Of a stretch of DNA of 64,000 nucleotides, positions 4,884 through 39,480 are shown in pieces. This DNA is from Gracilaria domingensis. Lineage: Eukaryota > Rhodophyta > Florideophyceae > Gracilariales > Gracilariaceae. The translations under genes and the position numbers were made by a program. The notes under the pieces are model-generated. The model did no database searches. It worked only from the letters and a program-made list of their open reading frames with translations, and was not told where the DNA came from. The DNA is taken from contig VCMS01000183.1 in assembly GCA_022539475.1 (NCBI GenBank), positions 62,001 to 126,000 of the forward strand, given 5' to 3'. How positions within the stretch are numbered: position 1 is the first letter of the stretch; each line of letters opens with the position of its first letter.

Positions 4884-6250
4884 TCAAACTTCTTGTGGGA
4901 CTTGGGTTTCCTTCGCGTCCTCCAGTTTGCCATCGGCTTGTGGCGCCTGTTCTGCCTCAGCCATCGCCTCCTCTCGCAGCACATCGGACATGTCGAAACA
5001 TGCGTACAATCCTGGGAAGACAGCCCCAACCAGAATCACGACACAGGCGGACAAGAAGACTGCCAGTCCGAGAGCCTGATATCCAGGCTGGTAACCCTCA
5101 TAATGAGCAAAACACGACGGCCTGTTGCATCGTCCGCCGTCGCGAGATTCGCGAACAGCACCAAAAGTAACGGCGGCGGAATGTGCCGAACCATCACGAA
5201 CCACAGAAACGGGATGTAGCGCACCACATCCACGAGGTCATTTCGAAGCTGAAGCACATTTCCAAACAGCAAGTTTACGATGATTGCACGCCACGTCACT
5301 TCTTTGGTGCTGCTTTTCTTGACGCGATAGCATAGGTAGATCACCGCCATCATCAGAACGAAGTAAGCGACGACCAGATACGAAGCCTTTCATTATCTCT
5401 CTGTCGTTGGCACCGAACCAGAATCCGCACGCCAAACTCAAGGATCCGAATGTGGCCACCATGTATGCAACAACCGGTTTCCATCCCAGCAGTTCCAGTT
5501 GTGCCTTGATGCCGTAGATCCACCCAATGGCAAAGCATTCCATAAAGCCCACCATAGTCATCATGAAATTCACATAGGAGTCCGTCACGTCCAGGAAAAG
5601 CAACCCAGTGTCGGTGCAGAACAGGAGTCCACCAAGAAACCCTGCCAAACACACACCGGCCGTCGTGTACGCGTGATGAAATCGACGAAGCAAAGCTGAA
5701 TCGCGGAACACCGTCGTCACTCCCTCGGCAAGCGCGGACGCTGAGTCAATCCCGAGCAGAAACAACGCAATGAAGAACAGCCTTTCCCAGTGTCCATGCC
5801 CTGGGAGCGTCGAAAGCGCGACAGGATACGTTGCGAAGATCAGCGACGGTCCGCCGATGTTATCCAGCTCAGAGATTTCCTTGTTCTCCAAGTTGGCAAT
5901 GTATCCTATTGTGCCGAACACGGCGAAACTGGCCACGATTGAGTACACCGAGTTGGAGATGGCGATGATGACGCCGTTGGAGAACACGGGCGCGTTCGAT
6001 CGTTGTATGACGCGCACGCAGTCATGATGCCGAACGTGACGGACAGCGAGAAGAACATTTGCGACACCGCCTCAGACCACACAACCGGCTGACTCTCCAA
6101 TACCGAAAAGTCCCACTCGCCAATGTACGCCTTGACGCCATCACCACTACCGTCAAGGGTAAGCGCACGAACCAGCAACACAATCAAGATGGCTATAGGT
6201 AAGCCCACCGTGACGTATGCAATGCGACCAGTCCACTTTACACCGACTTC
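4884..6250 (-). pseudogene. SLC6-type sodium-coupled transporter, truncated and frameshifted
   Basis: Minus-strand reading gives successive pieces of a sodium:neurotransmitter symporter: GRIAYVTVGLPIAILIVLLV (TM5), VVWSEAVSQMFFSLSVTFG and ASYN (TM6 region), SIVASFAVFGTIGYIA (TM7), GPSLIFATYPVALSTLPGHG, FLLGIDSASALAEG (TM8), a TM9-10 segment ending AIGWIYG, and a last membrane helix with LAVFLSACVVILVGAVFP before an acidic C-terminus. The family normally has 12 helices in about 550-600 residues; helices 1-4, with the first half of the Na+/substrate site, are absent upstream of about 6250. The frame shifts near 6000, 5375 and 5115. An intron explanation for the shifts is unlikely because homology is continuous across them. 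Either a host pseudogene or a badly read gene. Confidence 0.75.
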
Positions 6251-7495: not shown

Positions 7496-7878
7496 ATTGG
7501 CATAAACTACATTGCTTGTTCCTCGAAATTCTAACTACACGTCATTCAACATATGACAGTCATTGACCATTTTCAGGTGGACATGGAATAGCATAGAATT
7601 GCTCATAAAGCTCATATTTGTCTGTCGCAGTACGTTAAAACTATGCAAGCAACTCCGTGCTGCAGAAAATCGCTCTTTCTATTTTATATATCAATAGTTT
7701 GTTCAAGAGATATGGTAGCGTATTGAAAGATGTACGCACAATGTTGATGATCACTGAACGCTCATATTTTGATGTAGGACGAAAACATGTTGTTATCTCG
7801 TACACTCTCTTTTGCTCTCTGTTGTCGATGTTTATGTTTCAGAAATTTAGGAGGCGTAGAGCAAGCAACAACCTCTAA

Positions 7879-11788: not shown

Positions 11789-12259
11789 ATGCAGAGCACA
11801 CAGAAAGAAGCTAAAAATTCGAACCAGTTCGCCCCTCGTGGGGTTACTGAGAACAACGACCAGTTATCTTCAACCAGATCGCCCGATCTTTGTCCTCTGG
11901 GCATGGATCCGGAGGCTGAAATTCGGCTTTCGAAACATAGCCTTGTTGAAACTGCTGAAGAAAGGCAAGTTGAAAGTTCTCGTTCGCGTAAATCTTTCTC
12001 AGAAGCCCACCGACCCGTGGAAGACGACGAAGATATGCTGTCATGCGATTCGTGCGATCTCGTGCCCCTCGGGGTCGATACCGACGATGAGATCTGTCAG
12101 TTAGATTTGCGAATCGCAGAGATTGCCGCAGAGATTGCCTGTGGTGCGCATTCGACGAGATCGGAGCGCGTGCCTCCCGCTGAGGAGTCGGCAGACACCT
12201 CTCTCTCTGGCGAAGGCAATTTTGCCAACCATGTGGTGTTTGACGGGGCGGAGGGGTAG
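11789..12259 (+). CDS. hypothetical acidic protein with an internal duplication
   Basis: 156 codons from ATG at 11789. Two related segments are visible: DLCPLGMDPEAEIRLSKHSL then VETAEE (about residues 33-58) and DLVPLGVDTDDEICQLDLRI then AEIAAE (about residues 87-112). Conservation of DL.PLG.D...EI suggests real selection on protein sequence. No signal peptide, membrane helix or known domain is seen. It lies just outside the Harbinger-like element. It could be a complete small protein or one exon: the sequence after the stop is not obviously intergenic. Confidence 0.4.
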   Translation: MQSTQKEAKNSNQFAPRGVTENNDQLSSTRSPDLCPLGMDPEAEIRLSKHSLVETAEERQVESSRSRKSFSEAHRPVEDDEDMLSCDSCDLVPLGVDTDDEICQLDLRIAEIAAEIACGAHSTRSERVPPAEESADTSLSGEGNFANHVVFDGAEG

Positions 12260-14067
12260 TGCCTGGGATGGTACAATGGAGGGCCGTGGACAGTCTTCTT
12301 CGTACAAGTAGATAGTTGGTGTCCACGTTAGAAATTTGTCGTTCTTAGAACAAATTGAAAACTTTTTGGTAGTATTAGCTAAATATTTGGTAAAACTTTT
12401 AAAGATTCACTAAACTTTTGGGATTAATTCAATATTGTAGCGTTCTTCTCTGTGGCTTGAACTGGATTCAGCTGCTTGTTGCCGCTGGGAACGACCTCCA
12501 CCATACCACTTAGGCCTTTTCAGTTTTTTCCAATCCAACCTCTTTTGAGAGTACGTCGCTGTAGTGAATTGGGAGCTACGAGAGCAAGAATATGATTATG
12601 CTTGAGTACAAAGAGCTTTCCCCGATCTATTGCGCTGTATGGCGTAAAAATGGAACAAGGGCACGTGGAGACCAGGCACAGACTAAGGGGGTTCACCTTG
12701 TTGATAACAAGGCTGCAAGTGTAGATTGGCGTCAAGCTGTGGATCTACAGAGAGATGAATGCTGACTGCTTCTTGCGTGTGGGCCGATTTGCTCTTATTC
12801 GGCAACGGCAATTGGAAATCGGAAGGAAAGCAATGTATGGACAAGTGGAAATTCCAGAAGTTGGTCATGAGCAGCAGTTGTAGATTGGAATGAAGTATGC
12901 GAGTGATGGAGTTGGGGAGCACAATGATGATCATGGTCCATGACAGTCATGGCGCATGGTAGTCATGGTTCCATGAGCCGGACGAAGAGCTTGTGCAATA
13001 CACTGACAGGTTTGAAACTGGTTTAGAGAGGGAGGCTGTAACTATGTACGGTACGTTTGTGGGGAGCGTCGTGGATCGTATGAGCAACGGCGGATGGGGT
13101 GTGTAAACTGGACAACTTGATACGTGCTCATGTTTATGGGCGGGCCATACGGCTCGCCCAAGCTGCTGCAGCAGCTCCATGCGCGGCGGGTCGGCGCGCG
13201 CACGGTGGCGCGCCGCGCGCGTCGTGCAGGCGGCGTAACTTTACGGCGGCGTCCGGCGGAGTGCGCCCGGCGCGGGCGACAAGTATGCCACGGACGGGCG
13301 CGTGCGCGGCGTGTGCTGCGTGCTGCACTCGTTCGCCACGGCGCCGGCGTTCGTCGCCTGTCGGCGCCTGTCGGGCCGCCCGGGCGCCGCTGCGCGCCGA
13401 CGGCGGCGGCGAAGGGCGGCAGAGGCTAGATCAGACGCTGTGCCGCACCTTGGCACAGACATGGCTCCGTTGATTGAGCTTTATGCCTTGGAGAGATGCG
13501 GAGGATTGGACGTGCGAGATAGCTTGAAGGCATGGAAAGCTTGGGTCTCCATCGACGTTGCAAGCAGGGAGAAGAAGCGACGAGGAGAGTGTCATGTGTG
13601 CAAGCGAGGAAGGACTCGCTAAAGAGATGTTCCAGACCGGAGGGGAGGGCGCTGGAGCTCCTTGGTCCGGTACGACCGAGTCGCGCGGTGACTGCAGCTC
13701 GCTTGATGGACGCCGACACTACTTTTCTGCGCAACACTCCGAGAGCCGCTCGGCTGACGCGTCAACTGCGACAATCGCGTGGCGCGCTCAGTCGCCCGTG
13801 TTGGAGCTCGCCGACTGTGTGGCCGCTGCCGCGCCTATCAGTTTGGCTTTTTTCCTGACGACTACCACTTTGGCACTTCAATTCTCTCGTGACTTGTTGT
13901 GTATTGTGAGAATAGGATGAGGGCTCGGCCGCAGAGAACCGTGAAATGCGCAGTAAGATTGGGAGTTGACCGTTCGCTGCTTTCCCCCCCTCCTCCCCTT
14001 CAGCACCCATATATTTGGTTTCAACGTGTTTTATTGACGGTGTACAGCCGCGCGTGCCGGACGTGGC
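12260..14067. other. no confident gene; second GC-rich island at 13160-13440
   Basis: 12260-13150 shows no coding signal apart from short CATGG-rich sequence near 12935-12980. 13160-13440 is a CpG-dense block like that at 7.9-8.3 kb, with open frames on both strands; one plus frame reads GDKYATDGRVRGVCCVLHSF, which looks protein-like but is not identified. 13440-14000 has overlapping open frames without motifs. Confidence 0.45.
14008..14020 (+). promoter_or_regulatory. TATA-like box upstream of the SNF2 gene
   Basis: CCATATATTTGG lies about 50 bases before the ATG at 14068. Plausible core promoter; not proven. Confidence 0.3.
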
Positions 14068-14293
14068 ATGACGTCATGGCGCCGATTTGGCGCCAAAAGC
14101 GCGTCGCCCGCAACGCCACGCCGTGCGCAATCTCGCGCGCCACGCGTACCAAACGTAGCTCACTCGCCGTCGCCGCCGCCGACCAAACCGCTCGCCTCGC
14201 CGCCGCAGTCGCCATCGCCGCCGCCAGCGCCTCGCGTCAAGCAGGAGCGCGGTGCGCCCGGCGACGCGTGCCGCTCGCCGTCGCCGCGAGCCA

Positions 14294-14390
<97 letters not shown>

Positions 14391-14594
14391 AACCGTCTCG
14401 CCGGCGCCGCTACCATCGCCATCGCCGCCGTCGCCGCCGTCGCCGCCTGGCTTCGACTCGTCGCCGACGCCGCCCAGCCGCCGCGCCAAGCCGCTCTGGC
14501 CGCCGTTTATGACGCCGCCGTCGTCGCCCGACTCCCCGCGCTTCGACTCGTCCGACCGCAGGCCGCGCCCGTCGCCGTGCCAGGCATCCGCCGG

Positions 14595-14633
<39 letters not shown>

Positions 14634-14850
14634 CGCCGTCAATCGCGAGTCGTTCTACATGAGAATGCCGTTGCGCCGCCCCTCCGCCGCCGTCAAGCGC
14701 CGCCCGCCGAGCTCGCCGAGCGTGCCCCAGCCCAAATCGTCCGACCCCGAGCTGAGCAAGCTGCGCGCACGGTGGCAGCTCGACAAGCCGCTGCAGCTCC
14801 GCGCGCGCAGCAACAGCAGCACCAACACGAAGAAGAAGAAGAAGAAGAAG
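14068..14850 (+). pseudogene. 5' part of Rad5-like SNF2 helicase gene (N-terminal region)
   Basis: 261 codons open from ATG 14068 up to the exact left edge of the copia insertion. The encoded N-terminal region is low in complexity: Ser/Pro-rich, an Ala-Pro run from the GCGCCC-type hexamer array (about 14287-14390), an Ala-Ser run (14596-14632) and a Lys run from GAA/AAG repeats ending at 14850. It is probably a disordered leader. The frame at 14850 ends on a codon boundary, and the frame after the element, less one 5-bp target copy, begins on a codon boundary at 21101, continuing basic (RKMKLLNKLRSP). So this is the front of the helicase gene at 21101-23983, separated from it by 6.2 kb. Overlapping frames on the opposite strand are by-products of GC richness. 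Confidence 0.65.
14287..14390. repeat. CCCGCG-type hexanucleotide array encoding Ala-Pro
   Basis: A near-perfect hexamer repeat of about 17 units, in frame in the helicase leader. A shorter GCGTCC hexamer array encoding Ala-Ser follows at about 14596-14632. Unit length is a multiple of 3, so copy-number change would keep the frame. Confidence 0.8.
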
Positions 14851-15439
14851 TGTCGAAACCTGGGCTTCAATCGGCTCGAAGCCGGTGACAATTCAATAAA
14901 GATCAGTATCCACGGCCCCCAGTGAGGCTGTTTTCGTACGTCCTTTATTCTCACAGATGCGAACGGTATGCGGCACCCAATGGTGCTGCGGTAGAACGGA
15001 CCTGTCGATTCCACACGCAGTAGAGGTCGATACAAACGCAAGGTTAGTGTATAACGCTTCGTGGTTCGTTAACTTACTACAAGTAGTTGCAACTCAGTTG
15101 CGCGGTCTCCCGCATCGGAGATGGTTCCTGATAGTTGGATGTTATTTGCTTTTACTTGATGATTGTCCGAGGAGGTCAATCATGTAGTATCCGCACCCAC
15201 CCTATTTATACTACTTTCTAAGACAACTCTACTGTTCTATATATTATCTCTTTCATGTACTCTTCTGATTTGTATACCGATTACTGCCTAACTTATTTCT
15301 TGTTCACTTTCCAATCCGCCATGCAATCGACATCTCTCCAACATTACAAAATCAATATCTGATATGCATTGCTGCTTATGCATATATAAGTATTGCATGT
15401 CCATACAAATCCTCCCATGTAATCATAGAAAAATCTACA
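14851..15439 (-). repeat. LTR of the young copia element (3' LTR in its own orientation)
   Basis: 589 bp, about 99.5% identical to 20507-21095. A purine-rich tract lies just inside it on the minus strand. A 76-codon open frame inside is a by-product of LTR sequence. Confidence 0.92.
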
Positions 15440-18400
15440 TTCCAAAAACTTTTCTTTTGACAAAATTTGTCAAACATAGTCTTAGTTATCCATTCTTGAT
15501 AATTTCTTACGCTCAATCCATCCGGTCGGTGTCAGTGTGATTGAGTTCGTCAACATTACGTTCCATAGCGGATGAGTATTCCCAATCAGTCCCTTGGTCA
15601 GACCGTCTGATACGTTTTCGAGTCCTGGTATCCAGGCTAAGTAACGAAGCTCTCCTTTTGAATGGCTTTCCTTCAATGCCGCGACATCAATTTGAAGTCT
15701 CTTTTCCAGAGTAGAGCCACTCTTGGCTATAACATTAAAGAGCGTACGAGAATCAACATAGGCATCGATTGGTATCTTCCGTCCTGTTACTTCTTGTATC
15801 ATACTCTGAGCAACGTAACAATTGTCAAATCCATAAACCAATCCTTGGATCTCTGCCGCAAGAACTGAACGAGCCACTCGCTTGCATCTCATGCTGCCGT
15901 AGTGTATTATGTTTGCTCTGTTATCCTTATCCACCAGTAAAATAACAAAACCAAGTTGAGACTTCAGATCAGATACATTTGCGAAAGAGGAATCCGTAAA
16001 TAGCATGATACGAGTCGAATTCAAATCCAATGGAACAAACTTTAACCCTACTTCTGCTGTGCTGCGGCATCGGTCAACGATCTTCTTCATTTGCTTCAGA
16101 TCGGCAGCTTGAGGTTTGCTGACAGCGCTTGCCAAGATTTGAGAAGGTGCACACATATCTGGTCTGGTGCAGCAACCAATATACTGAACTTGAGCTCTTA
16201 CACTGGCAAAGTCTGCTGCGTTCTCAGGATATTTCAGCGACTTCAGTTTCTCCGTCTGTGTGACAGTCATAATGTTACCCACTTCTTTCCTTATGTTCAT
16301 GCCATTGAAGGTCGTAGATTCTCCTGCTGTAAGTTTTTTTTCGTGGTTTTGACTGAAAAATAACGGATTCGTTTTCCTCGTCTTCTAGAAAGTTATCGTT
16401 CCCATGCCCAAAAGAGTCATCTACCTGTAATATTGTCATCCCGTCCACTTTAGAACCGCTACGTCGATACAACACACATGGATCTACATTGGTTGGTCTC
16501 ATATTAAGGCGTTTCTTGTGGTGCTCTTGGTAGGTAAGAAACCAGTGTAGTCCGCTCTCCGGGATACCATAGAGTGGTTTTAGAACCTTCAATACCTTGT
16601 TCCTTCCTAGTTTCATCTCGGGTTGCGGACGAAGAAATATGTCTCGTTCGATTTTCGACTGCGATTGTATGTAAGCCTGGGAGATATCTCGTACATATGT
16701 ATCGTGTGTCTCAAACATGGCTGCTAGGGCGATGGCCAATCTTTGTCCTAATCTGCTGACAGTTGGTGACCTTGTCTCTATATTCAATGCGCCGCGGTCC
16801 TTGTAATTCTGAGCAACTAGTCGAGACTTTTCAATCGTACGGCCATTAGCGGTCTTCAATATATCCACCCACCTCGATCCATAAATTCTTGTCCCTTCTG
16901 GTACGGTCTCAATGTCAACTACTTCGAAAGTGCCTCGTCTCTTCAGCCCCTCTAGCTCGTCTTTCCTTGACTGAATGAAATCGTGTTCTTCACTCGCTGT
17001 GGATAAAGTGCTCATAGCTGTGTCCTCACCAAACATCTCAGAAAGAATCGCGTCTGATAACAAAACATCATTATTCCCTTGCACGTTTTCTGATTCATGA
17101 AGGTTGGGTTCGGGTAGATTGTTCTGTACAGTATCTTCGATCTGTTCTGTCTCTACTCGGGGTTGTTCCAGAGTAGATTCAATGACGGGTTTCACTACAC
17201 AAGAGCGAAAAATTCGGCGACCATGAGGAAGCTGTACAACAACCGTCTCACCATCGATGTTGATGAACGTGTGAGGTCCTTCCCACTTCTTCGATTTCTC
17301 TCGGTAAACATAGACCTGAGCACCTGCAGGCAGTCTTTGCAGCTTCTCGCTATATTCCTTTCCCTTTGGTCCATTGTACGATTTGAGCCCGAATGCTACT
17401 TTCCGTTTTGCGTGTTCCTTCTGAACGGCCTTTGTAGCAGTTTCAACTGCCTTGGATCTTTCCAGCTGTACTGTGGCGGGCGTGCTGCGTGCAGGTCGTG
17501 GAATTGAGCCGAATACCAGTAGAGTTGGGCATAATCCTTCTGGTCCGAGAGTATCGTTGATAGATTTAACCGCCATTTGTAGACAGTCGGCGTCTGTTTC
17601 TGCGCGAGGGAGTGATTCACGTATCTTAGTATATGCTACACGTAGTGGCCCGTGGTAGCGCTCGACATGTGTCATTGTTGAAGGTGACTCAATTGGGGCC
17701 TCAAGAACTGTTATGCCTTCTGCTTCCGATAGCTCATGAAACTCTTTGGAAATAAAGTTGCTGCCTTGATCAATGCGTAAAAAATCAGGTGGACCAAGGT
17801 ATAGACGGGACCAGCAACGTAGAAAAGCCTTCCAGACTTCAGAAGATGTCACTCGCTTCAGAAATAGGGCGGAATTGAAATGAGTAGCTTCGTCGACGGC
17901 ATGGAATACTGGTTTGTTGTTGACATACATGATATCCACTGCTACGATGTGGTTGAATCTCAGATCGTCGGTACCAACTGTGAGCTTGAATCTTCTTGGC
18001 CTTGGGGCGTTCACAGCACAAGTAGCACAGGATTTTGTCAGATCTTCTATAGCTTCTCGGACTTTGGCATCCATCTCATCTGGTCGCGCTCTCTTCAGAA
18101 GGTTTGTAAATGCGTTCACGCTGGGATGACCAAACACTCTGTGAAGTTTGCGCAGTTCTGTTTCCGTGTACAGTGAGTACGTCAGGTCCTCTCGTTTCCA
18201 ATTGTGTATGAGAAAATAGTTCCGAAACGTAAGGTCTTGACGCAAATGCTTGTACATTACCTCCCTTCGCTGCAAACTGATCTCCAAACCATTTTCAATC
18301 ATATCCTTCATGCTCAGAAGAGATGGTACCTTGTCCTGAACTATCTGAAAGGTAATATCTATCACCAGGTTTAGATCCTTAAACGGTACAGGTATTGTCG

Positions 18401-20506
18401 CAGTACCAAGTGGTTGGCTACTACCGCCAATTCCTCGTAAGTGCTTGACGTTATTTCGGTCAATCTGGCAGGGTACGTCGAATTGTTCACAGTACGCCTT
18501 GTATTGAGCATATGACATAACGCTGGAACGGTTTGCACAGGTGTCGATGTAGAGTCCTTTGAATTCATCTCGCTCACCTTCTCGGAGTTCTGCTTCCATT
18601 GTGGCTAGGGCTTGGTTCATATCTCTGTGAAATCCGATACCATGGACCAGAGACGCATTTGCCAGAAGTACTTCGTCCGTTTCATGCAGGTTCATGTCGT
18701 CTTCGATGATATAGGCTGCGTCTTCTTCTGACCATTCGCTGTCTGAATCGCTATCGCTTGAGTAAACGACGTTGGCGTCGTGTTCATCAACATTACTGTC
18801 CTCATCTCCGGTGACTTCATCAACGATATATGCTAGGTCCTCGATAGTGATGTAAGCCGATGGTCTCTTGCTTTTCAGCCTGTCTATGGCAGCCTTGACC
18901 TCCTGTGGGCTGTGTCTTGTGCGTGCAAGATGATTTTCGCCACAAACGTAGCAACCTCGTTTCCCTGAAATCCATCTGGACGACAGTTTCCTGGAATTTG
19001 AGTCCATTCTTTTCCTGTGGTGGCCTTTCAAATGTTTCCTAGCATCGCCTCCATATTTGTGTCCTAAACTGTAATTTGCAAAGTGGTCACGGGTCTTTCT
19101 CCTATCTGAGGAAACAACAAAGCTGTCAGCCGATCTTGGGTCACTTGATAGGAAGGTGGCGATCCGACTTCGGGCTTCTTGAGAAGTAGAGGGGATTCTC
19201 TCTCGCAACGCTTGAGTAATTTTTTCCATATCGATAGAAACGATGAGTTGGTCGCGAAGAAAATTGTCGTTGCGGTATGCTGGGTCCAATTGCTGTTGGA
19301 GATTGACAAGCTTCTCATAGAAGGACATGAAAACTGCTAGTTCGCTCTTCTCCGGACTCTCGCGCATCGCTTGAGAAAGACGCATCGATTGCCAGACAAG
19401 TAATGCCCTGTTCTTCTCTTCGGGATTCATGTAGTTGTCGATAAATTTTTGAAGTATTCCTTCGTATGGATCTCCATCTCTGTAGTTCCTGAGGTAGAAT
19501 TTCAATGCGGCACCATCAAGCATGGTTGGGAGATATTCAGCCTTCTCAATGTCTGTAAGACGGCATCTCTTTGCCATTGCATCGTAGAATTCGAGCGTAC
19601 CTTGTAAATCGTCTTGAAGACGTCCAGAGAATCGGGGGCGGCCTTGACAGAGCTTCAAAAGACTATGCGTTCCCTTTCCAGAGTTGTTCTCGTTCTCATC
19701 AGGAGGTTGACCTGAATTGTAACCCTTCGATTGAGTAATCCTGTCCGGCAGGTTTGAGCAGATGTTGGGGAGAACATCTTGCAATCTGCTTCTCTGAGCC
19801 TCACGGCTGAGTTCCGTGGGTTCTTGACGAATGATTTGTGGCACTTCGTCTCTTACACTTCGGTTCGCAGGTTCTACAAAAACTTCCTCATGTTGTTCAT
19901 TACAAGTGCTTCGTGGGTTCTGCGGATGTAGAACTACGGCTTCAGCATTATCGTTTCTGTCTTGTCCATACTGATGGCCGGTTTGATTAGCAACAATGTT
20001 TCCATGAGATGCTGGTTCTCCAGTACCTGTAGGTACAAATCTATTCTGCATAAGGCATTCGCCGAGTGCGCGCTTTCGCGGGTACCCTTGCTTTCGTTTC
20101 ACCCATACTCCTCGGTTCGTAAGGAAATCGATCCATTTGATTACCAAAAATCGAGACATATTGGGAATACTTGCTGGCCTAAAGACAGAGGTAAACTCAA
20201 ACCACAATGCTTCATTCTGGAGCTTGGTACTTTCGAATGTTGCCAACATTTCTTTTCCGTATGCTTCTACTTCATCTCTATACTTTCTCATTTCTTCTTC
20301 TGATGCATCCGGTGGCGGGAGATCTGGATCCCCGATTGCGTTGTACAGTGCATTGCTAAAATCTCTCAACGCATCTGCGTTTAGCGCTTGGACTTGGTGA
20401 GCCTCGCTAAGTTCACCGTGTGCTATTCCGGATACCTCGTCTGTCATTACGTAGTCCAGGTAAATGTTACAATTGCGGTTAACCTTAACAGCTGCACAGT
20501 TATAAC

Positions 20507-21095
20507 TGTCGAAACCTGGGCTTCAATCGGCTCGAAGCCGGTGACAATTCAATAAAGATCAGTATCCACGGCTTCCAGTGAGGCTGTTTTCGTACGTTCT
20601 TTATTCTCACAGATGCGAACGGTATGCGGCACCCAATGGTGCTGCGGTAGAACGGACCTGTCGATTCCACACGCAGTAGAGGTCGATACAAACGCAAGGT
20701 TAGTGTATAACGCTTCGTGGTTCGTTAACTTACTACAAGTAGTTGCAACTCAGTTGCGCGGTCTCCCGCATCGGAGATGGTTCCTGATAGTTGGATGTTA
20801 TTTGCTTTTACTTGATGATTGTCCGAGGAGGTCAATCATGTAGTATCCGCACCCACCCTATTTATACTACTTTCTAAGACAACTCTACTGTTCTATATAT
20901 TATCTCTTTCATGTACTCTTCTGATTTGTATACCGATTACTGCCTAACTTATTTCTTGTTCACTTTCCAATCCGCCATGCAATCGACATCTCTCCAACAT
21001 TACAAAATCAATATCTGATATGCATTGCTGCTTATGCATATATAAGTATTGCATGTCCATACAAATCCTCCCATGTAATCATAGAAAAATCTACA
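20507..21095 (-). repeat. LTR of the young copia element (5' LTR in its own orientation)
   Basis: 589 bp; TG...CA ends; followed by the AGAAG target copy. Confidence 0.92.
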
Positions 21096-21100
21096 AGAAG

Positions 21101-23983
21101 AGGAAGATGAAGCTGCTCAACAAGCTTCGGTCGCCCGCCACCGCCGACTCCCCCTTCGCCAACAAGTCGCCGAGGCCCGTCGCCGACCCCGCGGGCGCAC
21201 GCCTGCTAATCGGCCACATCGACCTGTGGCGCCCATACTGCTCGCACCTCTCGGCAACCCACGTCGAGCAGACGCTGGGGCGCGGCGAGGCCGACGCCGC
21301 CTCGCTCCCCTCGCAGTGCAACGCGCAAATCGCCGGCTGCACCGCCGCAGAGGTGGACACGATCGCGCGCGAGATGGGGCTCGATCTCCGGACGCAGCTC
21401 ACGTACGAAAACGAGGAGGAGGCGGAGGACCCCATGTTTGAGGCCAACCAGCTGGTGCGGCTGCCCAACTACCTCTTTGACGACAAGGAGGCCGTGCCGG
21501 ACGCGCTGCTGCAGTCGCTGCGATCGGCCATGCACTCGGGGCTCATCGAAGTGCTGTGGTCCTTGTCGCATCACGACGGAATCGACAACGAGCACAGGGC
21601 GCTATCGTGCGATATCGACCTCCTCAAGATTCCCATCTCGTGGCCAGGGAGAGCCGCTTTCCTCGCCCAGCAGTGCGCATGGCTGTCCAAATGACGCGCT
21701 GTTGTGCAAACTCTCAAGCGTCTTGATTCTTCCAACTGCTGTCGAGTGCGTCTCGCCGTCTACCTCACCCCCGAGGCATTCGGCTCCGTGTTCGTCAACG
21801 CCGCCACGTTTTGCAGCAGGAGCTCGCCGTACTCTATCATGACGCCCTTGGATGTCGGCGTTCCGCTCCGGACTCCATCCGCAACGCTACTCGCCAAGCA
21901 TCGGCTCACACACAGAATGACCTTGCCGACCAATACCTTCGCTCTGTATGACGTCTTTTCCATGCTGCAGCCACAACTCGCCGACAAAAGCACGCAAGCA
22001 TCGCCCTCTTCAGCAGCAGCCGTCGTCGGCTCCGTGCTCGATGCAAAGCTGGAAGGCAGTCAGTCGGAGACGTTCAGATCGCTCTTGTCAACCCAACGTT
22101 TCAGTGACCACGATCTTCGCGAGCGCAGCCAGGATATCATGGACGAGTTGAAGGAGATATGCGATGAACAGAACCAAGACACGAGCCTCAACTCCATTCA
22201 TCAGGCGTTCTTGCGTTCCAGTCTGTTCACCGTGTCCGCCGGCTATCAGCGTGCCGAGGAACAGCCCAGCAATATCAGGCTGCAGTTACGTTCCTATCAG
22301 TGTGAGAGTCTTGCATGGATGATTGATCGCGAGAAACAACGAAGTTTGAACGACCCATTCTGGATTCCAATCTCTGGCAAAGATCGAGACGATGCGGAAC
22401 GAACTCTGTACTATTGCCCGCTCACCGGGGCATTGTCCACAGTCCCGCCGCCTCCTGTCGTCGGTGGTGTGCTTGCGGAAGAGATGGGTCTCGGTAAGAC
22501 CATCATCGCTATCTCGCTCATCGATTCAACCTTCGAGCATGCGCGTCAAAGTCGATATGCCTCCGTTGCTGGCCATCGTTCGGATCTCATCAGCAGTGGC
22601 GCCACGCTCGTCGTCTGTCCCGTAACGCTGCTCAAGCAATGGGAGCAAGAGTTTAGGACAAAGCTACGGAATCCATTACGCGTGCTCACGTGGTACGGCG
22701 CGCGTACGAAGGACTCGAACAGGATCGCCGGTTATGATGTGGTGCTCACAACATACGGCGTGCTTTCGTGCAACAATTATGACTCGCTGACTAAGATCCA
22801 CTGGTATCGCCTTATCATCGACGAGAGCACCTATCTGCGTGGTGGCGCTAACAACTGTGCAACTGTGCTGAACTATGAATTGGTGTCTTCTCGTCGATGG
22901 GCAATCTCTGGGACGCCGTTTGGAAACCACTTACCCACTTTTCTCGGTACGATGCGCTTCCTAGGAGTGGTACCCTTTCCGTCCTCGAAAGATTTCGATT
23001 TCATCACATCCACATTCAACGAGGCCGCACTCAGGAACAATGCCGTGAATACCGACAGCATCTTCCTTGTTCCCCGCCTGGCATATGTGCTCAAGAGCCT
23101 CGTGATCAGACACGTCAAAGATCAGGAGTTCCGTGGCTCCGCTTTGGTCGAGTTGCCTCCCGCCTCTGGCCGCCTGGTCAAAGTGAAGGCGGATTGTTTG
23201 TAAAAGTCAATGTACAAGACTGTGGAGGAAAAGATTCAAAGTGCTGCGTTTCCGCGCTTGAAGAGTGAGCGGCAGTTCGGTGCGAATGTACTTCCGCTGC
23301 TCCAGTCGCTGATACCCGTCCGAATGATGGCGGACGGGGTTGTGCCCGAGGCTCGCGTATGGAATGTTGGAACTACTTCGCGCATCATCGGTTACTGCGG
23401 CAAAGCATCGGACGTACAACTGCCCGGGGGGATTCATACCGGAGCGAAGATCAAGCAGCTGATCGAAGACATTACATCGTACCCAGTGAGGGATGAGACA
23501 AACAAGTTCGTGATCTTCTCGGAGTTCCGGGAGGTTCAAGCGGCCATCAGGACTGCACTCGAGCGCGCCGGTCACAGGACTCTCACGCTTGAAGGCTCCA
23601 TGAGCGCGGTGAAGCGCGGCAAGATCATTCAGCAGTTTGCAGAGGACGTCGAAGTGTCAGCAATGGTGTTCAGCATGCGCTTGGGGGCGTGCGGACTCAC
23701 GCTGACGATGGCGAATGTTGTTGTGTTGTTCGAGGTGGGTGTGGACCATGCGCTGGAGCTGCAGGCAGTGAATCGCATCCATCGTATTGGTCAGACCCGT
23801 CCCGTGGAGACGCTCACGTATGTCACGGAGGATACGGTGGACGAACGTATGATGACCGTGAGACACAGACGGGGTTTACCGAGATACTTTGGCGACCTTG
23901 AGAAGATCAAGAAGGAGAAGGGCGGCACAAGTTTTACCAAGCTGGACGAAATGAGAATTCTTTTTGATTGGTCGCCTTGCTAA
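21101..23983 (+). pseudogene. Rad5-like SNF2-family helicase, main part
   Basis: About 960 codons. The ATP-binding half has motif I AEEMGLGKT (about 22475-22505; usually ADEMGLGKT), motif II IIDEST (about 22815; DEAH-like box) and motif III AISGTPFGN (about 22900-22925). The C-terminal half has KFVIFSEF (about 23503), LGACGLTLTMANVVVLFE (about 23680-23735) and motif VI QAVNRIHRIGQTRPVETL (about 23762-23815). GGVLAEEMGLGKT and HRIGQTRPVE are typical of Rad5/Rad16/HLTF-like SNF2 proteins, which remodel chromatin or act in damage tolerance in the nucleus. The RING finger that Rad5 relatives carry between the lobes is not seen. Two stops interrupt an otherwise continuous frame: TGA at 21692-21694 and TAA at 23201-23203. 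Together with the copia insertion upstream, the gene is almost certainly inactive here. Confidence 0.8.
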
Positions 23984-23999
23984 GTTGACATGCAGATGG

Positions 24000-24855
24000 T
24001 TTCGATTATCGAATGTTTCCATCACAATTGTTTGAGAGGAGCAAAGTGATTCTGTGGACTGATTCGGTACAGCTGTTATGGAAGAGGGGTTCCAGCTGTT
24101 GCCGAATGGCTCAGCTTCTGTCGACCACATTGACATGGTGCTGTCTGTTCAAGAACTTTGACTCCAGAACTTTCGCAATCTCAGTACGGTGAACTATGCC
24201 GACTCGACAATGGACAGCGACCTGGACCTGAATAAAGCCTGGAGAAGAAGCTAGGTTCTTCAGGTTAAGCTACCAAGATTACGCCTTGTTAGCGTTGCAG
24301 GAAGATACCCGCTTCCCCGTAGCTAAGTTTGTCGAGGCTAATGCCTGTCGTAAAACGTACACCACCGTCTCTTTTGAAGTCTCCCCTCGTCCTCCCGCAC
24401 CTCTCCGAACTCGACTGCCGTCGAATAGTCGGCAACTGCTTGGCTTTGGCAGTACACGTACATTGCGTAAAGCACCACGGCACGGAGGCGATCTGTTTGT
24501 CACACTGCGAGTCGCAATTTCTGAGCTGACCAGTGTATATCATGAATATTGTTTTCACCGCATCGTAACGCCAGTTGAGCGCAAAACTGTTTTGATGCGT
24601 GTAAATCCGAATCGGTGTACACAAGCACAACGGAGCCACCAATCTATATAGAAATGCGGGGAAGTGCGGGAAAAAGCACTTTTGTCACTTTGTATCGGAC
24701 AAATATGTTTCAAGTATTTGAAATATGTCACGTATACCGCTACACCCAATGGGCCTCTCCTGAAAATGCAAGTCCCATTTTCCATTTCGCATAACTGATG
24801 GCCTCCTAGTGGAATGCTGACTGCTAGCTCGCAGAGAGGTAAGGCGAATTATCTA
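24000..24855. other. SNF2 downstream region, no gene recognised
   Basis: Open frames of about 120 codons exist on both strands at 24286-24651, but they overlap each other and show no motif or plausible protein character. Confidence 0.45.
24228..24233 (+). terminator. AATAAA polyadenylation signal of the SNF2 gene
   Basis: AATAAA lies about 245 bases after the stop at 23983, the first such hexamer downstream on this strand that I found. Confidence 0.35.
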
Positions 24856-25739: not shown

Positions 25740-25753
25740 GAAAAGGAAACAGA

Positions 25754-26072
25754 AGTAATAATGGCGCAATTCTTCACAGGACATGTGCCATCACTTCACC
25801 CTGTGGCCTCCTATCTGAATCGTAAAACGCTACGATGCACCTGTGGTACGAACGTTAAGAAAGACTGCAACCATGTGGTCTTACGATGCCCATTATCGAA
25901 CATGTCTCGACCAGTCCTCCTGGCTGGACAGCCAAACGAAGCCAAATCATCAGTGCAGTACCTGATAAGACATAACTCACAGAACTTCTTGGCCTTTTTG
26001 GAGAGAGAGAACCTCCTCTGAGGCTCTACTGTAGTTTAGGAATAAGAAACTACTGTCCAAAATAAAGAAGAA
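25754..26072 (+). mobile_element. 5'-truncated LINE (non-LTR retrotransposon) copy
   Basis: The 319-bp insert is bounded by a 14-bp target duplication, GAAAAGGAAACAGA, at 25740-25753 and 26073-26086. It carries the last about 88 codons of a LINE ORF2: QFFTGHVPSLHPVASYLNRK, then CTCG, H and C spaced as in the zinc-binding tail that follows RNase H in I/Jockey/R1-type elements, ending with FLAFLEREN and a stop at 26021. A short 3' end with AATAAAG and an A-rich tail follows. Severe 5' truncation is normal for LINEs. The duplication shows it is a single insertion event. Confidence 0.8.
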
Positions 26073-26086
26073 GAAAAGGAAACAGA

Positions 26087-26577
26087 GATGTTGGGAGAGT
26101 AGCCATTTGCAGCACTGAGACACTGTTCTGTATACAAGTCGTATTTTACGTTTACTGTGTCCGGCTGTCTTCCTACCTTGTTGAAACGCTGATGGACAAT
26201 ATCATCTGAAGCACACTGTGCTTCGCACAGAATAGGAATTTCAAGAACATTCTCGGCTTAACGAGAAATAAAGTACACGAAGGCTATTATGTCAGTGTAT
26301 TGGTAGTTGTGTCGGTACCCTGTCCTCTAAAGTATATAGCCTTTACATGAATATATTCCATAGAGTTCCTCTTGTCGTTTCTATATGCATGAAAAGTCTA
26401 CTCATGCACCATATATCGGTTTCCGTACGCCCTGAGCTCTACATACCACGTTAATCTACGTGGACGTTAACGTTTATAAGTCCTGACGTTCGCCTTCAAT
26501 TCGCATGCCCCCACATTTCCGCTTGTTGATTTCCCCAGCCATCGCACAGCTTCCTAACTCACCCCCGCGCCGAAACC
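26087..26577. other. upstream region of the secreted protein gene
   Basis: No coding frame. A TATA-like TTATAAG lies near 26474, about 100 bases before the ATG. Confidence 0.45.
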
Positions 26578-27630
26578 ATGTCCACCCCGTACGCAGCATT
26601 CCTTTTTGTTATGCTGTTCGCCTCCGTCCATCGTGGCGTAGAGAGCCAACACTGGATAGAAGACCTCATTCTCGCGGGCAGAACCGACTGCCCTCCTGGC
26701 TCCGGCGTTAGTGCAAGCGGTTCTTGTGAAATCTGTCAACCTGGCACCTTTGGAATCAGTATTGGTCCGTGCGATCCGTGTTACGCAGGAAGCTTTGCAA
26801 ACGAAACAGGCCAAGCCTCATGCACTCCATGTCCCCCAGGAACTCTGTCCCGCTCTGGAGCAACTTTCTGCATCTATTGTCCAGACGGGCAGCTACCGCT
26901 GAGCGACGGAAGTTGCGGATTGTGTCCCCCTGGCGAGTATCACGATCTGCAATTCGGTGCGAAGTGTACGAAATGCCTAGCAGGTTTCTTCAAGCCCGAA
27001 GCAGGAAATAGCCCGTGCTTGCCATGTCCACTTCACTCGTTTTCGCTCTTCGGTGCCGCTAATTGTACGAAATGTGAAGAGAATCAGACTCTGATGAGAG
27101 ACGGAACTTGTGCATCATGTCCTCCGGGACAGTTCATGAGCGAGTCGGAGCAGCAATGCGAAGATTGCAATCCTGGTCGGTTCACAGATTTCCCGAATGC
27201 AATGAGCTATTGCTTCCCGTGCGGCGGCAATTCTTTCTCGAAGAGAGGTTCAACCGAGTGCGTAAGTTGCCCGAAGCGCCAGGTTTATATTCAGAGTTCA
27301 GAAAGGTGTGAAGTTTGCCCGCCCGGAACTTCGTACAACTCCGAAACTTTGGAGTGTGACGAGTGTTCGTACAACCAGTTTAGCCGAGGACATGGAGAGC
27401 GATATTGTACACGATGTGCACCAAATAGTTTTGCTCGTCGTGGTGCAACCACATGTTTTGCTTGTGAGCCTGGAACCGTTTTCATAGCGGATATTGACGC
27501 GTGTGGAACTTGTGGTGATGGCGTCCAATACAATTCGTTCGAAGCGAGCTGCAGAGATTTCTATTCGTACCGCTATTCCTTTGGGACCCCTACGCCGGAG
27601 CCATCTCCATTTCTGGAAGAGTTGGAGTGA
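26578..27630 (+). CDS. secreted GCC2/GCC3-like cysteine-rich repeat protein
   Basis: 350 residues. Residues 1-23 form a signal peptide (hydrophobic AAFLFVMLFASV core). The rest is about eight repeats of the type C..C.PGTF......C.PCP.G..S..G...C..C, as in the ephrin-receptor-like GCC2_GCC3 / TNFR-like disulfide repeats; clear examples are CEICQPGTFG, CTPCPPGTLSRSG and CLPCPLHSFSLFG. No transmembrane helix or GPI-like tail ends the protein, so it is probably released or wall-bound. The single-exon frame starts at the only ATG that gives a signal peptide, with a TATA-like box about 100 bases upstream. A related, longer gene lies on the opposite strand at 29162-30972. Ligand unknown. Confidence 0.85.
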   Translation: MSTPYAAFLFVMLFASVHRGVESQHWIEDLILAGRTDCPPGSGVSASGSCEICQPGTFGISIGPCDPCYAGSFANETGQASCTPCPPGTLSRSGATFCIYCPDGQLPLSDGSCGLCPPGEYHDLQFGAKCTKCLAGFFKPEAGNSPCLPCPLHSFSLFGAANCTKCEENQTLMRDGTCASCPPGQFMSESEQQCEDCNPGRFTDFPNAMSYCFPCGGNSFSKRGSTECVSCPKRQVYIQSSERCEVCPPGTSYNSETLECDECSYNQFSRGHGERYCTRCAPNSFARRGATTCFACEPGTVFIADIDACGTCGDGVQYNSFEASCRDFYSYRYSFGTPTPEPSPFLEELE

Positions 27631-29161: not shown

Positions 29162-30972
29162 TCAACAGACTCCAGAAGTGAAGGCTTCCCACCATGCTGG
29201 GAAACTCTCGCGCTCTCTCTGTACGTCCAAATCCAGTGGATGATTGAAAGGTGCAGATGCGCTGGGAGCTCCAAACGACAAGCATTCCGTGTCGCCTATA
29301 CCGTAAGTAAACGTCCCTGGCGGACACTTTTCACATTCCATTGCTCCGTCGTTGCGTGTGACGAAACCAGCGGGACATTTCTCACATGGCGTATGCTCAG
29401 TACATCTGGGACACACCGAGCTTAGCATTCTCTCGTATGTGGCCACCACCCGATATGTTCCGGCGGGGCACTGCACACATTCATTCTCACCTTCCGCAAC
29501 AGATTTTCCGTAGCTCCCTGCGGGGCACTCGGAGCAAGTTCCATCCATCATCCCGATGTTTTGCGCAAGGGGTCCTCGACATCCGCAGCTATAGTCATAG
29601 TCCCGCACTTGACTCCCAGGGCAAGGTTCACATTCCCGGAATTCGTATAACCCGGAACTTCCAGGTACGCATGGAGGACAAGCGTATGAACCGTCTTCAG
29701 AGACAGAACATTCTTTGGACACACAGAAAGGATGATCTCCGTGATCTATCGCAAGCTGCTCGTCAATGGCACAGTTTGTTTCTCGGTTAACGCATTTGTC
29801 AGGATAGGCATCAGGTACCATTCCTTCCGGGCAACTTTCACATTGAGTTGCACCAGAGTCTGTTGAAACTTTTCCGCTCGGGCATGGCAGGCACTCGGCT
29901 GAATTTGTTTCCGAACTATAGAATCCAGGACGGCAAGGCACGCAAAAGCGAGCAAACTGCGTGTCATGGATGTGTGTTCCTGGAGCACAAGTTTGACTGA
30001 CAACAGGAATCCTAGGCAGCTCATCCCATGGAACACAGTGAGATTTTTCCACCTTCGCCCTGATTACATCTGCACATGGCGCGCATGTTAGCGGGAGCCC
30101 ACCAACACTACCCTCATGGCTGGGACAGGGCACGCAATGTTCCGTTGCAATGTCATACCTCTCATCAACTTCGCACCGTTCACAGTCCCCAGTCGAGGTT
30201 TCGATGTAGCCACGAGGACAAGGTCCGTTCACTTTTCGGCAAAATCTTCTGCCAGGGGTGTACGACTCTGTGTTCTCAGGACAATCGAAGCATTTAGGAT
30301 ACGAAATGTATCCGCGATAGAATCTGCCGTACTGACCCGCTTCGCATGGTATGCACCTTTGAGAAGCGAAGTCAGCCTCGGATTCAGTACCTAACGGGCA
30401 CAACGTACATTTCGCCGCGGCTGCACCGCTGAATGTTCCTTCTGGACATCTATCGCAAGTACGGTGTTCAGAAGATGTACCAGGTGCGCATGATTGCATT
30501 GATGAATTGAAGAAGCTCCCCGAACAGCAGCGTGTCCCGGAGGGCAATCTTTACACTCCAGAAGGTTTTCCTCATCGGCATAACCATAATTGCATTCTTG
30601 GCACCCGTCAGTACGGAATATTGGCCATGCAGTAAAGACTGAATGACCTACTGGACATTGAGCACATCGTGCAGAACCCTCTAACGATTTTGTACCTTCT
30701 GGACATTGGATGCATGACGCGGATCCAGCTACTGAAAAACTTCCCGCGGGACACAGTCGGCAAACTTGAGAGCTTTGAGCTCCAGCGTACGAGATGTACC
30801 GTCCGGCGCTACATGGTACGCATGTCGTGGAGTTTACAGCATATTGATACGACCCTGGAGGGCAGAGCACGCATTGAGACGTGGTCGAGTTCCAATAAGA
30901 GCCTCTCTGACAGCCATTACCGGTCACGACATTAGGGAAGAGGATAAATGAGATAATTAAAGCTTGAAACAT
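29162..30972 (-). CDS. secreted GCC2/GCC3-like cysteine-rich repeat protein, one frameshift
   Basis: Two overlapping minus-strand frames together give about 600 residues. The first starts with a signal peptide (MFQALIISFILFPNVVTGNG) and repeats such as CVLCPPGSYQYAVNSTTC and CIQCPEGTKSLEGSARC; the second continues with CDRCPEGTFSGAAAAKC, CVPCRPGFYSSETNSAEC and CEKCPPGTFTYG to a stop at 29162. They meet near 30535 in CPPGT, where one base appears to be missing; homology is continuous, so a single-base frameshift or read error is more likely than an intron. About twelve Cys-rich repeats of the GCC2_GCC3 type, no transmembrane segment. A TATA-like ATATATATAT lies about 150 bases upstream (31121-31130). 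Paralogue of 26578-27630, facing it. Confidence 0.75.
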
Positions 30973-32018
30973 GGTGACGCTTGAGTTCGACGCAAACTTG
31001 ATATTGCTTGAGTGATCAGCTGTTGAAAGTCTGAAAGCGGGTCGAAAACATTCTCTTTGAACATCACGACTTCGCTCTTTGTTGGAGACGAGAAAGAACG
31101 AACAATGCTCTTAAGCCTGAGAATATATATATGGCTTTGCTCCTTTAGGACTGGGGCAGGGTGGGACTGAGTGTGTAACCCGGAACCTCCGTAAAGAGCT
31201 TCCCCTATAGACCCAATGCAAATTATGAACTTCACCGATGATGAAGAAAATACACGCATGCATCCAACACTACAAACAGACACATGATTTGCATGAAATG
31301 CTAAGCATTTGTTTGATAGCTTAGCATATGAACCTAGATTCTTGCAGTCTCGGACGGATAAATACATGCCCGCATACGGGCTAATCCTATGCGAAACTTT
31401 GCATTCGAATCGAAAAATGATCGTCAAGAAAATATACGAAATTTGTTAGATTCATATTATTTAAATGAGCATAAAAAATTTTAATGAACAGTTTTGATCT
31501 ATGAGAAAGTCATCCCTTTTAAAAATTAGACCTCTTTAATTTTCAGTTGGTCTCTTGGATATGCCCTACTTTATGTGGCACGTTTCATTTCAGAAAAGAT
31601 TTTCACAAAGAGTTCATACTCGAGGACTAAATCTTTGACCAAAATAATTTTGATCTCCAAATGCTCATGTTCTTTTTCTTACTTCTTTTTTCCAATTTTA
31701 AGGACGAGAAAAGAAAAGAACTTAGATAGGTTTGAAGGGTTTGTTTTACTCTTGAAGGACTTTTTTACTGCTTTAAGAATAAAAATTAGTGAAGTCCTAC
31801 TTAGTAATTTTACTCTATATAATAATTTATACGAAGTATTTCAAATCGAGCACCATGTGAGAATCAACGTGTCACATTAAAAGTGTTCATTTAATTTCTA
31901 AGTTCTAAGTCTCTAGCTAGAAAAGCAAGTGTAAGCTTATGGAAAAAGCACTGCGCAAATCCTGGGATTTGCTCAATGCCGCTTCTCAAGGCACCGATGA
32001 AAGGTAGTGAATCCTTGG
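30973..32018. other. intergenic between two minus-strand secreted protein genes
   Basis: 30973-31150 holds the promoter of the upstream gene. 31430-31900 is AT-rich without genes; a 101-codon frame at 31575 has no protein-like character. Confidence 0.5.
31121..31130 (-). promoter_or_regulatory. TATA-like box for the gene at 29162-30972
   Basis: ATATATATAT about 150 bases before the ATG at 30972. Confidence 0.35.
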
Positions 32019-36425: not shown

Positions 36426-38599
36426 CATCACGGTCAGACAGCTAAGTGCAAGAGTGTCCTGGTACACACGACGATATTGACATAAACAGACAGGATCACT
36501 GCAACACTTGATTATGCACGAATAAATAAGACCATCGGCTTTCACCCATGTTGGCAAGCAATATACGACGATATATGATCAAGCTCACAAAATGTCAAAC
36601 ATGGACTATCACAATGTGAAGCTGACTTTGATCGAACGTTTCGGTGCAATTGAGTAACCGACGAAGAGCATTTGTCCGACAGTTTTGGCACGTTTAGATT
36701 ACGTCGATTTGCTAAGTTCCTTGAAAATGATGGACTCTTTCTTCGATCAGGTAGGTTTTAACGCAAGAGCTAAGTTCGTGTTACTACGAAAGGCCGTCAT
36801 GGAGCTTGCAGGTCTTGCGCAGTTTATCAGTTTGGTTGGAGCAGATAACTATGAACCCTTGAAGGCCATCGCTAAGGAATTTGTCATTGGAAAGAAAGCT
36901 CTTGGATCATATGGTACCCTCAACGCTTTCCCACAGGCGAAGCATATTTTTCAACGTTCTAAAGAACCTGTTAGTCCAAGTCCGCTGGAGTCGAAAGTAG
37001 ATTAGTTGGCCGACCAGATGGCACAGTTATATCTCTTAGTGAAGAAGACTCAGAGCGCTGCGAATGTCACTGGACGTCAGAATACGGAAAACGTTTGTTC
37101 GTATTGCAGCCAACCCGGTCACTTTGCGTCGCGTTGTGAGCTTAATCCACACCAAAATACACGATGTGGTAATTATAGCATATTAGGTCACTTTGCAACT
37201 ACGTTCTGGAGAAAGAAAATTACCGATGTTCTGCGAAAAGTTGCAATTGAAGATTTGAAGTCCGAATCAGAGAGAGAAAAGTTGCTGAGTGAGAATCGAG
37301 GTTCCCAGAACACAGGCTAGAACGAAGTCTCAGTCGTGATTGCCGACCCTTCAGATTAAGACGATCCCGTTACTACCGCGAAAAGAGACGCGGAAAGGGA
37401 GCCTCTACCGAAGCAACCGCGAACTGGCCCTCTCTCAGGGATTTCGCCCTTAATGTTTCCCGAATCCCATATTACCAGGACTGTCTCTCAGCATGCCAAA
37501 GGCCCTCAAAAAAAGTCGAAAAAGACTAGGAAGGGCACCGGAAAGAAGTCTTAAGGGAAGTCCCTCGGGGAGTGAAGATCCAAGAACACGTTGGGAAATA
37601 TAACATTTACGAAGAATTGGCGAGAGCCCCTTCTGGCATCACTTTTGGTCAACTAGTCCGCGGTGATGCGGACGAGTCCAAGAAAGACATTCGGCGCATT
37701 CTTTCCGGAGGTTTTTCGTCAAGGCGTGTCAGTTACGCTCATACTCATTCACTCCCTCAGACTCTCAAAGTGGTGAATGTTACTGTCTATGGCACTAGTT
37801 CCCAGGCGTTGCTGGACTCCGGTGCTATCCCTAATCTTATGTCTATTGCGTTATGCAACCGGTTATCGTTGGAGATGAAACCGTCGAGTAGGAGGATTGT
37901 CGTTGCCGAAGGAACCAAATCCTTAGTTCGCGGAAGCCTGCACGATGTTCCCCTCGAGTTTGGTTCTTTCTGCGTCCCGTTGGATTTCCTGGTCGTTGAG
38001 AAGCCTCCCTTCAATGTGATCGTTGGCTGTCCTGCCCTTGAGTCACTCCAAGCCTGCTTGGACCTCGGTACTCAGCAAGTTTCTATGCAATTTGACGGCG
38101 CATCTGTTGTTTTGCCTCTCGATTACCATCGCCCTAGTGTAGTGTTCGACGAAGAGAATGAATACACCGACAGTGAGGATTTCACTTCCGCTTCAGAGTC
38201 GTTCTTCTCTGAGAGTTCAGAGAGCGACGACGATGGCTACGCGATCGCTTTCTCGAAGGGCAAAGTCGACACGTCGGTATATGCTTTGAATACTATGAAT
38301 GAAGAACAAGACTCCTTACAACCACTCGAAGAGGAATCCCATAACGAACTGGATAATATTGGTGCTACGAGTCTCGGTCAGGAAAGATCCTCCCCTGCTG
38401 ATCCTCAGGATTTGGAGGAAGGTATGAGACAATTGAATGTGAATGATGTTGAACCGGAACCTGCTATTACTACTCCTCACGCCCCTGGGGAAGCAAATAG
38501 AGAATTTGAGAACGCTGAAGAATCGGAGGAAAGCGCAGACGACGACGACTCCGAAGGCTCTCCATCAGATGAAGAGCATGAACGCGATCTCGTTGTCCC

Positions 38600-39480
38600 A
38601 GTCAGGGATGACGTTGTTCTTCTACGAGCCGAAGATGTGAGACGCCAACCTGATTATCTTATCTTTCGAGTCTACCGTCGTTATCCTCAGCCACCGGACA
38701 GAGAACAACTCCACCCTCACACTTCCGAACTTCCGTACGGAGAAATGGGTGTCCTAGAACTGGACAACAGCTCCGAACCAGTAGTTCGTTTCGGATTAGG
38801 CTGGCCTATGCCTGCACCGGCTGATGAAGAACCTTTCGCGGTTCCATCGCAAAGTGAAGTTCATGAAGACCATGTGATGGTTATAAGTCTTGACAACAGC
38901 AACGATGAGGCCGATAACCAGCTGAGCGGTCCAGCTGAGCCGAATGACGATCAGCGCCACTCGGTCTATCACGCCCCAAATCCCTCGTCTTTTCAGAGTT
39001 CCACGACAGACACTAGCCTTCAACCACCTGATCCACCCCTTATGTCAGCTGGCAACGATGGAGAAGATGAAGGGAGGAACTCTGGAGAGGACGACGAAGA
39101 AGATGAAGATTGTGTAGAAGTAGAATCTGAAGTTCATGAAGCAGAAGTAGATGTAGAAGAGCAAGTGGCGAATAATGTAAATAAAGGTAATTGTGGAGAT
39201 GATGAAGATGGTTCCTTACCGGAAAAAGTCGAACTGTCTGGCACCTCTCTCTACCGCGACCCTGTCCTCAGAATCTCTATTACGGACGAGGTCACTTTGC
39301 TACCACCTGAAGAAGGGGAACTTATCAGCGGCTTTCTTTTGGTTCGTGTCCAGATTCAGTACCCTGTACGCACTCCAGCGCACCTCCCTCACCTCGGTGT
39401 GCAGAACATGCCTTTTGGTTGTACCATGCTACTGGAGGAGGATGACGATTGCCATTACGTGATTGTTTTCGCGGAAGACC
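38600..39480 (+). other. duplicated module pair in the Ty3 linker
   Basis: Two segments about 650 bp apart share a pattern: DDVVLLRAEDV...LIFRVYRRYP...MGVLELDNSS, and DEVTLLPPEEG...LLVRVQIQYP...CTMLLEEDDD. Both are followed by acidic sequence. The position between protease and reverse transcriptase is unusual. No known domain is recognised. Confidence 0.5.

Follow-up and report, generated by a model that had tools for sequence, protein, structure and literature searches.

Comparison of a helicase locus of the red alga Gracilaria domingensis with its relatives in the same genome leads us to favor, as its likely history, the insertion of a young copia element between the promoter/leader and the body of a duplicated SNF2 helicase gene that lacks a RING and was already decaying. 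The stretch of DNA analyzed (the window) is 64,000 nucleotides of contig C183, and the genome with which it was compared is the 77.9-Mb assembly of 680 contigs to which that contig belongs. In line with a red-algal source, phycobilisome linkers are matched at 14 places of the assembly, 4 on contig C680 and 10 on eight further contigs; among 14 control genomes, the only one with matches was that of a cyanobacterium. The likeliest anatomy of the locus is a promoter block, a leader, and a helicase body, with the insertion between leader and body.

The element lies on the minus strand at 14851-21095, between a 3' LTR (14851-15439, minus) and a 5' LTR (20507-21095, minus) of 589 bp each. Comparison of this LTR pair revealed mismatches at 3 of 589 bp (LTR positions 67, 68, and 92), and all three differences are borne by the 5' LTR. 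The LTRs have TG...CA ends and are flanked on the plus strand by AGAAG (left copy 14846-14850, right copy 21096-21100), a 5-bp target-site duplication. The insertion coordinates, the three LTR differences, and the duplication are all as a preliminary description of this DNA had placed them. The list of open reading frames gives the element a minus-strand frame of 1415 codons from stop to stop (16275-20522), in which Pfam recognizes an integrase (rve, 17706-17954, minus; 7.9e-9) and, at 16395-16922 (minus), a reverse transcriptase of the RVT_2 type (3.7e-13); the gene reads leftwards, with integrase upstream. A second minus-strand frame, of 300 codons (15482-16384), lies in a different frame from the integrase-reverse transcriptase frame and has no Pfam match. 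In searches for gag, protease, and RNase H, Pfam at an E value of 0.01 matched nothing in 18978-20522 or 15485-16384 of the element, and at the same threshold no protease was matched in its remaining pieces. From the order of integrase and reverse transcriptase and the type of the latter, the element is of the Ty1/copia type, and it shares with that group the LTR ends and the length of the target duplication as well. The window copy differs from other such elements in that its frame is broken within pol (1415 plus 300 codons); otherwise nothing about it is unusual. Elsewhere in the window, at 37530-42009 (plus), are apparent pieces of a Gypsy-type element, with aspartic protease, RVT_1, RNase H-like, and integrase H2C2 matches in three open frames.

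The LTR used as a probe matched at least 25 places in the genome; 20 of these form ten LTR pairs, including the window copy, and the other five are partial and diverged. The family thus has at least 10 near-identical copies with the window copy counted. Eight of the nine other paired copies have zero LTR mismatches and perfect 5-bp duplications, and four of the nine hold a single unbroken frame of 1679 codons. In the ninth copy (contig C39, L055), the 5' edge is altered and the family variants in one LTR are not those in the other, an arrangement that suggests replacement of one LTR by that of another copy. With its three LTR mismatches, the window copy exceeds eight of the nine others, and across its 6245 bases it has 7 private substitutions, of which three lie in the right LTR. 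Those three are private to that LTR among the 20 LTRs compared, which rules out for the window copy a recombinant element whose LTR differences were inherited from subfamilies. Private substitutions put the age of the insertion at about 0.0012 changes per site, and LTR differences put it at 0.003. We conclude that the insertion is very young. The family, whose LTR pairs are identical in 8 of 10 copies, is probably still mobile in this genome. Among the papers listed by literature searches, no title or opening of an abstract concerned the window's copia element.

To the right of the insert, the helicase body (plus strand) falls into three parts: 21101-21694, ending in an in-frame TGA (21692-21694); 21695-23203, ending in an in-frame TAA (23201-23203); and 23204-23983. 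A protein search of the genome identified the C134 copy as the closest relative over the full query (86% over 501 residues, with no internal stop), followed by a fragment on C46 (94%), a fragment on C195 (59%), and then distant SNF2 genes. The first stop corresponds to CGA in C134, and the second to GAA in C134 as well as in C46; the terminal TAA is common to C134 and the window. The preliminary description had seen one open frame of about 1220 codons here, and that frame is interrupted by these two stops. Reading the stops as introns was ruled out, as the C134 alignment is gap-free and in frame through both sites. At the DNA level, C134 is 87% identical to 21107-24447 (blastn), of which 23984-24447 (plus) is a shared 3' flank at the end of the duplicated stretch. 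In the 916 codons compared over 21221-23980, dS against C134 is 0.214 and dN is 0.072, a ratio of 0.336, and substitutions fall 75/50/148 on the three codon positions. On the strength of this ratio and this distribution, the body reads as that of a working gene, long under protein selection for much of its history.

Both lobes of an SNF2 helicase are present, in two successive pieces of the body: SNF2-rel_dom at 22295-23128 (plus; PF00176, 7.3e-45) and Helicase_C at 23462-23791 (plus; PF00271, 9.6e-14). The best solved structure for 21695-23200 in a PDB search was Rad5 (6l8n, 1.9e-22), followed by Snf2 (6iy2, 4.8e-17). The label "Rad5-like SNF2 helicase" given to the gene earlier is borne out to that extent, but the features that distinguish Rad5/HLTF proteins, a RING between the lobes and a HIRAN domain, were not found. 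Neither was matched in the window pieces at an E value of 0.01 or, at E values up to 1, in the C134 paralogue, where 952 codons are open; in this last search the profile filters drop most matches above about 0.1. By sequence comparison, then, the helicase is Rad5-like by its best PDB match only. Three other long open frames of the genome (on C25, C8, and C133) match RING models, and that on C25 has the order HIRAN-like, SNF2, RING, Helicase_C, with a HIRAN match (3.7e-5, 23.9 bits) slightly below the 24.7-bit cutoff. Since RING-bearing relatives occur elsewhere and C134 has no RING or HIRAN match, losing the window copy need not mean losing Rad5 function.

Leader and body are neighbors in all three paralogous 5' ends that hold both sides. 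In C134 they lie ten bases apart, with the leader 68 to 76% identical to that of the window in its two best pieces. The other two 5' ends (C102a and C102b) lie some 12 kb apart on C102. In one, the leader adjoins 168 bp of body, followed by what is probably an LTR element, with 244-bp direct repeats that are 98% alike, and by a further piece of body; in the other, it adjoins about 60 bp of body. Paralogues that start near 21107 with an unrelated or absent leader, or relatives of the leader that end before the insertion point, were not seen. The two C102 helicase 5' ends (L044 2667-8061 and L066 1452-1953) are 93% alike over 1.1 kb, about 1 kb of which is upstream. Of the statement that the flanks were "recently one gene of about 1220 codons," adjacency is thus upheld, whereas the one-gene part is not, given the two in-frame stops and a leader that shows no constraint as protein (see below). 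No fully intact relative was found among the paralogues in the genome; even C134 differs in frame by one base near window position 21219, and its 5' frames are broken.

The window copy looks like a moved duplicate, because its similarity to the paralogues stops at 14033 while C134 and C102a match each other further upstream (78% over 626 bp). In about 1.3 to 2 kb upstream of 14033, the window copy has no match to the C134 and C102 copies, save one of 17 bp (E value of 0.044), and this edge is special to the window copy. A retrocopy, with the edge at 14033 as a transcription start, was ruled out by the DNA that the C134 and C102 copies share further upstream. The window's upstream flank is itself duplicated, 12000-13748 being 85 to 94% identical to contig C102 near 150.6-152.9 kb, and 25750-26080 holds a dispersed repeat of about 325 bp that occurs in at least 40 places, with up to 95% identity along the full repeat. 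Searches with the flanks revealed no allele that lacks the insert. Outside the window they matched paralogues or repeats only: at best 86% over 1.3 kb in one search, 91% over 457 bp in a second, which scored 40 of 46 candidates, and the dispersed repeat in a third, which scored 40 of 202. Other features of the window include a piece of a sodium:neurotransmitter symporter family gene (5238-6071, minus) and open frames with Ephrin_rec_like/TNFR-like Cys-rich repeats (26530-27630, plus; 29162-30550, minus; 30391-31110, minus), possibly a family of surface proteins.

A block at 14033-14146 (plus), where the window copy's similarity begins, is present in all four helicase 5' ends; over 114 bp, blastn gives 85% identity with C102a and 79% with C102b, and over 63 bp it gives 94% with C134. 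It contains TGACGTCA at 14069, exact in the window and C134 and with one mismatch in C102a, and the palindrome TTTGGCGCCAAA at 14086, exact in the window, C134, and C102b and with one mismatch in C102a. If up to 1 mismatch is allowed, the window holds 2 matches to TTTGGCGCCAAA where 0.28 would be expected, and the one at 14086 is exact; we take it to be an E2F-type site. The block may therefore be described as promoter-like. Between it and the insert runs a Ser/Pro/Ala-rich putative leader frame of 261 codons (14068-14850, plus), open in the helicase frame and without a Pfam or NCBIfam match at an E value of 0.01. The frame from its ATG does end on a codon at 14850, and the helicase frame does resume at 21101, as described before, but the significance attached to an insertion "exactly between two codons" is not borne out: such a match has a one-in-three chance anyway and falls in an AAG run, so it carries little weight. 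In another frame, the 5' part of C134 has a Cys/His-rich stretch, HC..CFCLVCD..C..W..HC (L042, about 7600-7671, minus), without a Pfam match and not seen in the three frames of the window leader; its pattern is one known from plant proteins. Matches on C123 and C326 were rejected as instances of this domain, because the query coordinates lay in another frame; they represent related DNA, not a protein domain.

Several observations raise the question of whether the leader was ever translated. It could be a 5' untranslated region or promoter, with translation starting at the ATG at 21107-21109 (plus) and the element splitting promoter from coding sequence, a reading compatible with the history that we favor and to which we give slightly less than an even chance. 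That ATG, six bases past the right AGAAG and in the helicase frame in the window, is conserved in all four copies, though in C134 the frame that starts there does not continue past the one-base difference near 21219; the ATG at 14068 is GTG in C134 and ACG in C102a. Leader substitutions are spread evenly over codon positions (13/10/10 against C134, 13/13/13 against C102a, and 16/15/15 against C102b), showing no codon-position bias in the helicase frame, and the third-position share differs from that of the body (P = 0.010 against C134); this test of constraint is not final, as C102a and C102b also contain frame breaks or stops, and the 5' frames of C134 are broken. The promoter-like motifs at 14069 and 14086 fit an untranslated leader as well. 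On the other side, the leader frame is open in the window, a long frame is open in C134, and a peptide like PELSKLR.LW.LDKPLQLRARS can be read in all four copies. Furthermore, indels between the window and C134 over 14630-14843 amount to 24 and 6 bases, and dN/dS in the first 39 codons after the insert is about 1 (1.02). As for the open frame, when the bases of 14146-14850 are shuffled, a given frame lacks stops in 11% of the versions, and in the actual sequence another of the three forward frames is likewise free of stops.

The order of events can be read from the stops and from the fragment on C46, with which the window can be compared over 22444-23979. Here dN/dS is 0.65. Of the 1527 aligned bases, 14 have changed in the window lineage since the split (8 nonsynonymous, 5 synonymous, and 1 stop), or about 0.009 per site, and 43 have changed in the C46 lineage (28 nonsynonymous, 13 synonymous, and 2 stop); four sites could not be assigned to a lineage. 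Neither lineage differs from neutral (P = 0.36 for the window and 0.48 for C46), a test with little power on 14 changes. The two totals are unequal (P = 0.00015), and the window copy could have kept some constraint for longer. Over the body, about 3 substitutions (whole-element clock) to 8 (LTR clock) are expected since the insertion, and the probability that two or more stops arose in that time is 0.018 to 0.042 by the LTR clock and 0.005 to 0.007 by the whole-element clock, on the assumptions that element and host body share one neutral rate and that the private differences arose after insertion. Two such stops would be improbable in the short time since the insertion, so at least one is probably older; the direction of the first (TGA 21692) rests on the open frame of C134, which alone covers that site.

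These data weaken the earlier statement that "loss through insertion is fresh," both stops lying outside the insert. An intact helicase of about 1220 codons killed by the insertion, with both stops arising later, would accord with the low dN/dS of the body, the adjoining leaders of the paralogues, and the total of changes on the window side, which is below that of C46. Nevertheless, the low probability of two late stops, the leader without protein constraint, and the unconserved ATG at 14068 make this account improbable. A gene still alive, with the element spliced out within an intron and the stops intronic or read through, is less probable by far; no observation here favors it, the C134 alignment passes both stop sites without a gap, and the element is antisense.

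In the history that we favor, a duplicated SNF2 helicase gene without a RING, Rad5-like by best match, would already have been decaying when a Ty1/copia element, from a family that has multiplied recently, landed in reverse orientation in an AAG run between promoter/leader and body. The element left the 5-bp AGAAG duplication, presumably through its integrase. Given that 6.2 kb and an LTR reading away from the helicase now separate the promoter-like block from the body, the body is probably no longer expressed, and, insertion aside, the protein is interrupted by the two stops outside the element. Decayed gene duplicates interrupted by LTR elements are a known kind of locus, and the window shares with them its stops, frame differences, and fragments (C46, C102, and C195), as well as a second, probable LTR element in another helicase copy of this genome (C102); it differs in that its insertion is very young and from a recently spreading family.

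Known kinds of event cover everything observed here, and the modest interest of the locus lies in their order: one insertion is dated relative to the decay of its target, and the reading of a fresh gene kill shifts once paralogues within one genome are compared. The copia family is usable as a population marker. More speculatively, and at rather long odds, a red-algal SNF2 lineage without a RING, once with an N-terminal Cys/His motif, may be disappearing one copy after another, by duplication, truncation, and LTR-element insertions near the 5' end, the newest of which is possibly still polymorphic in the species.
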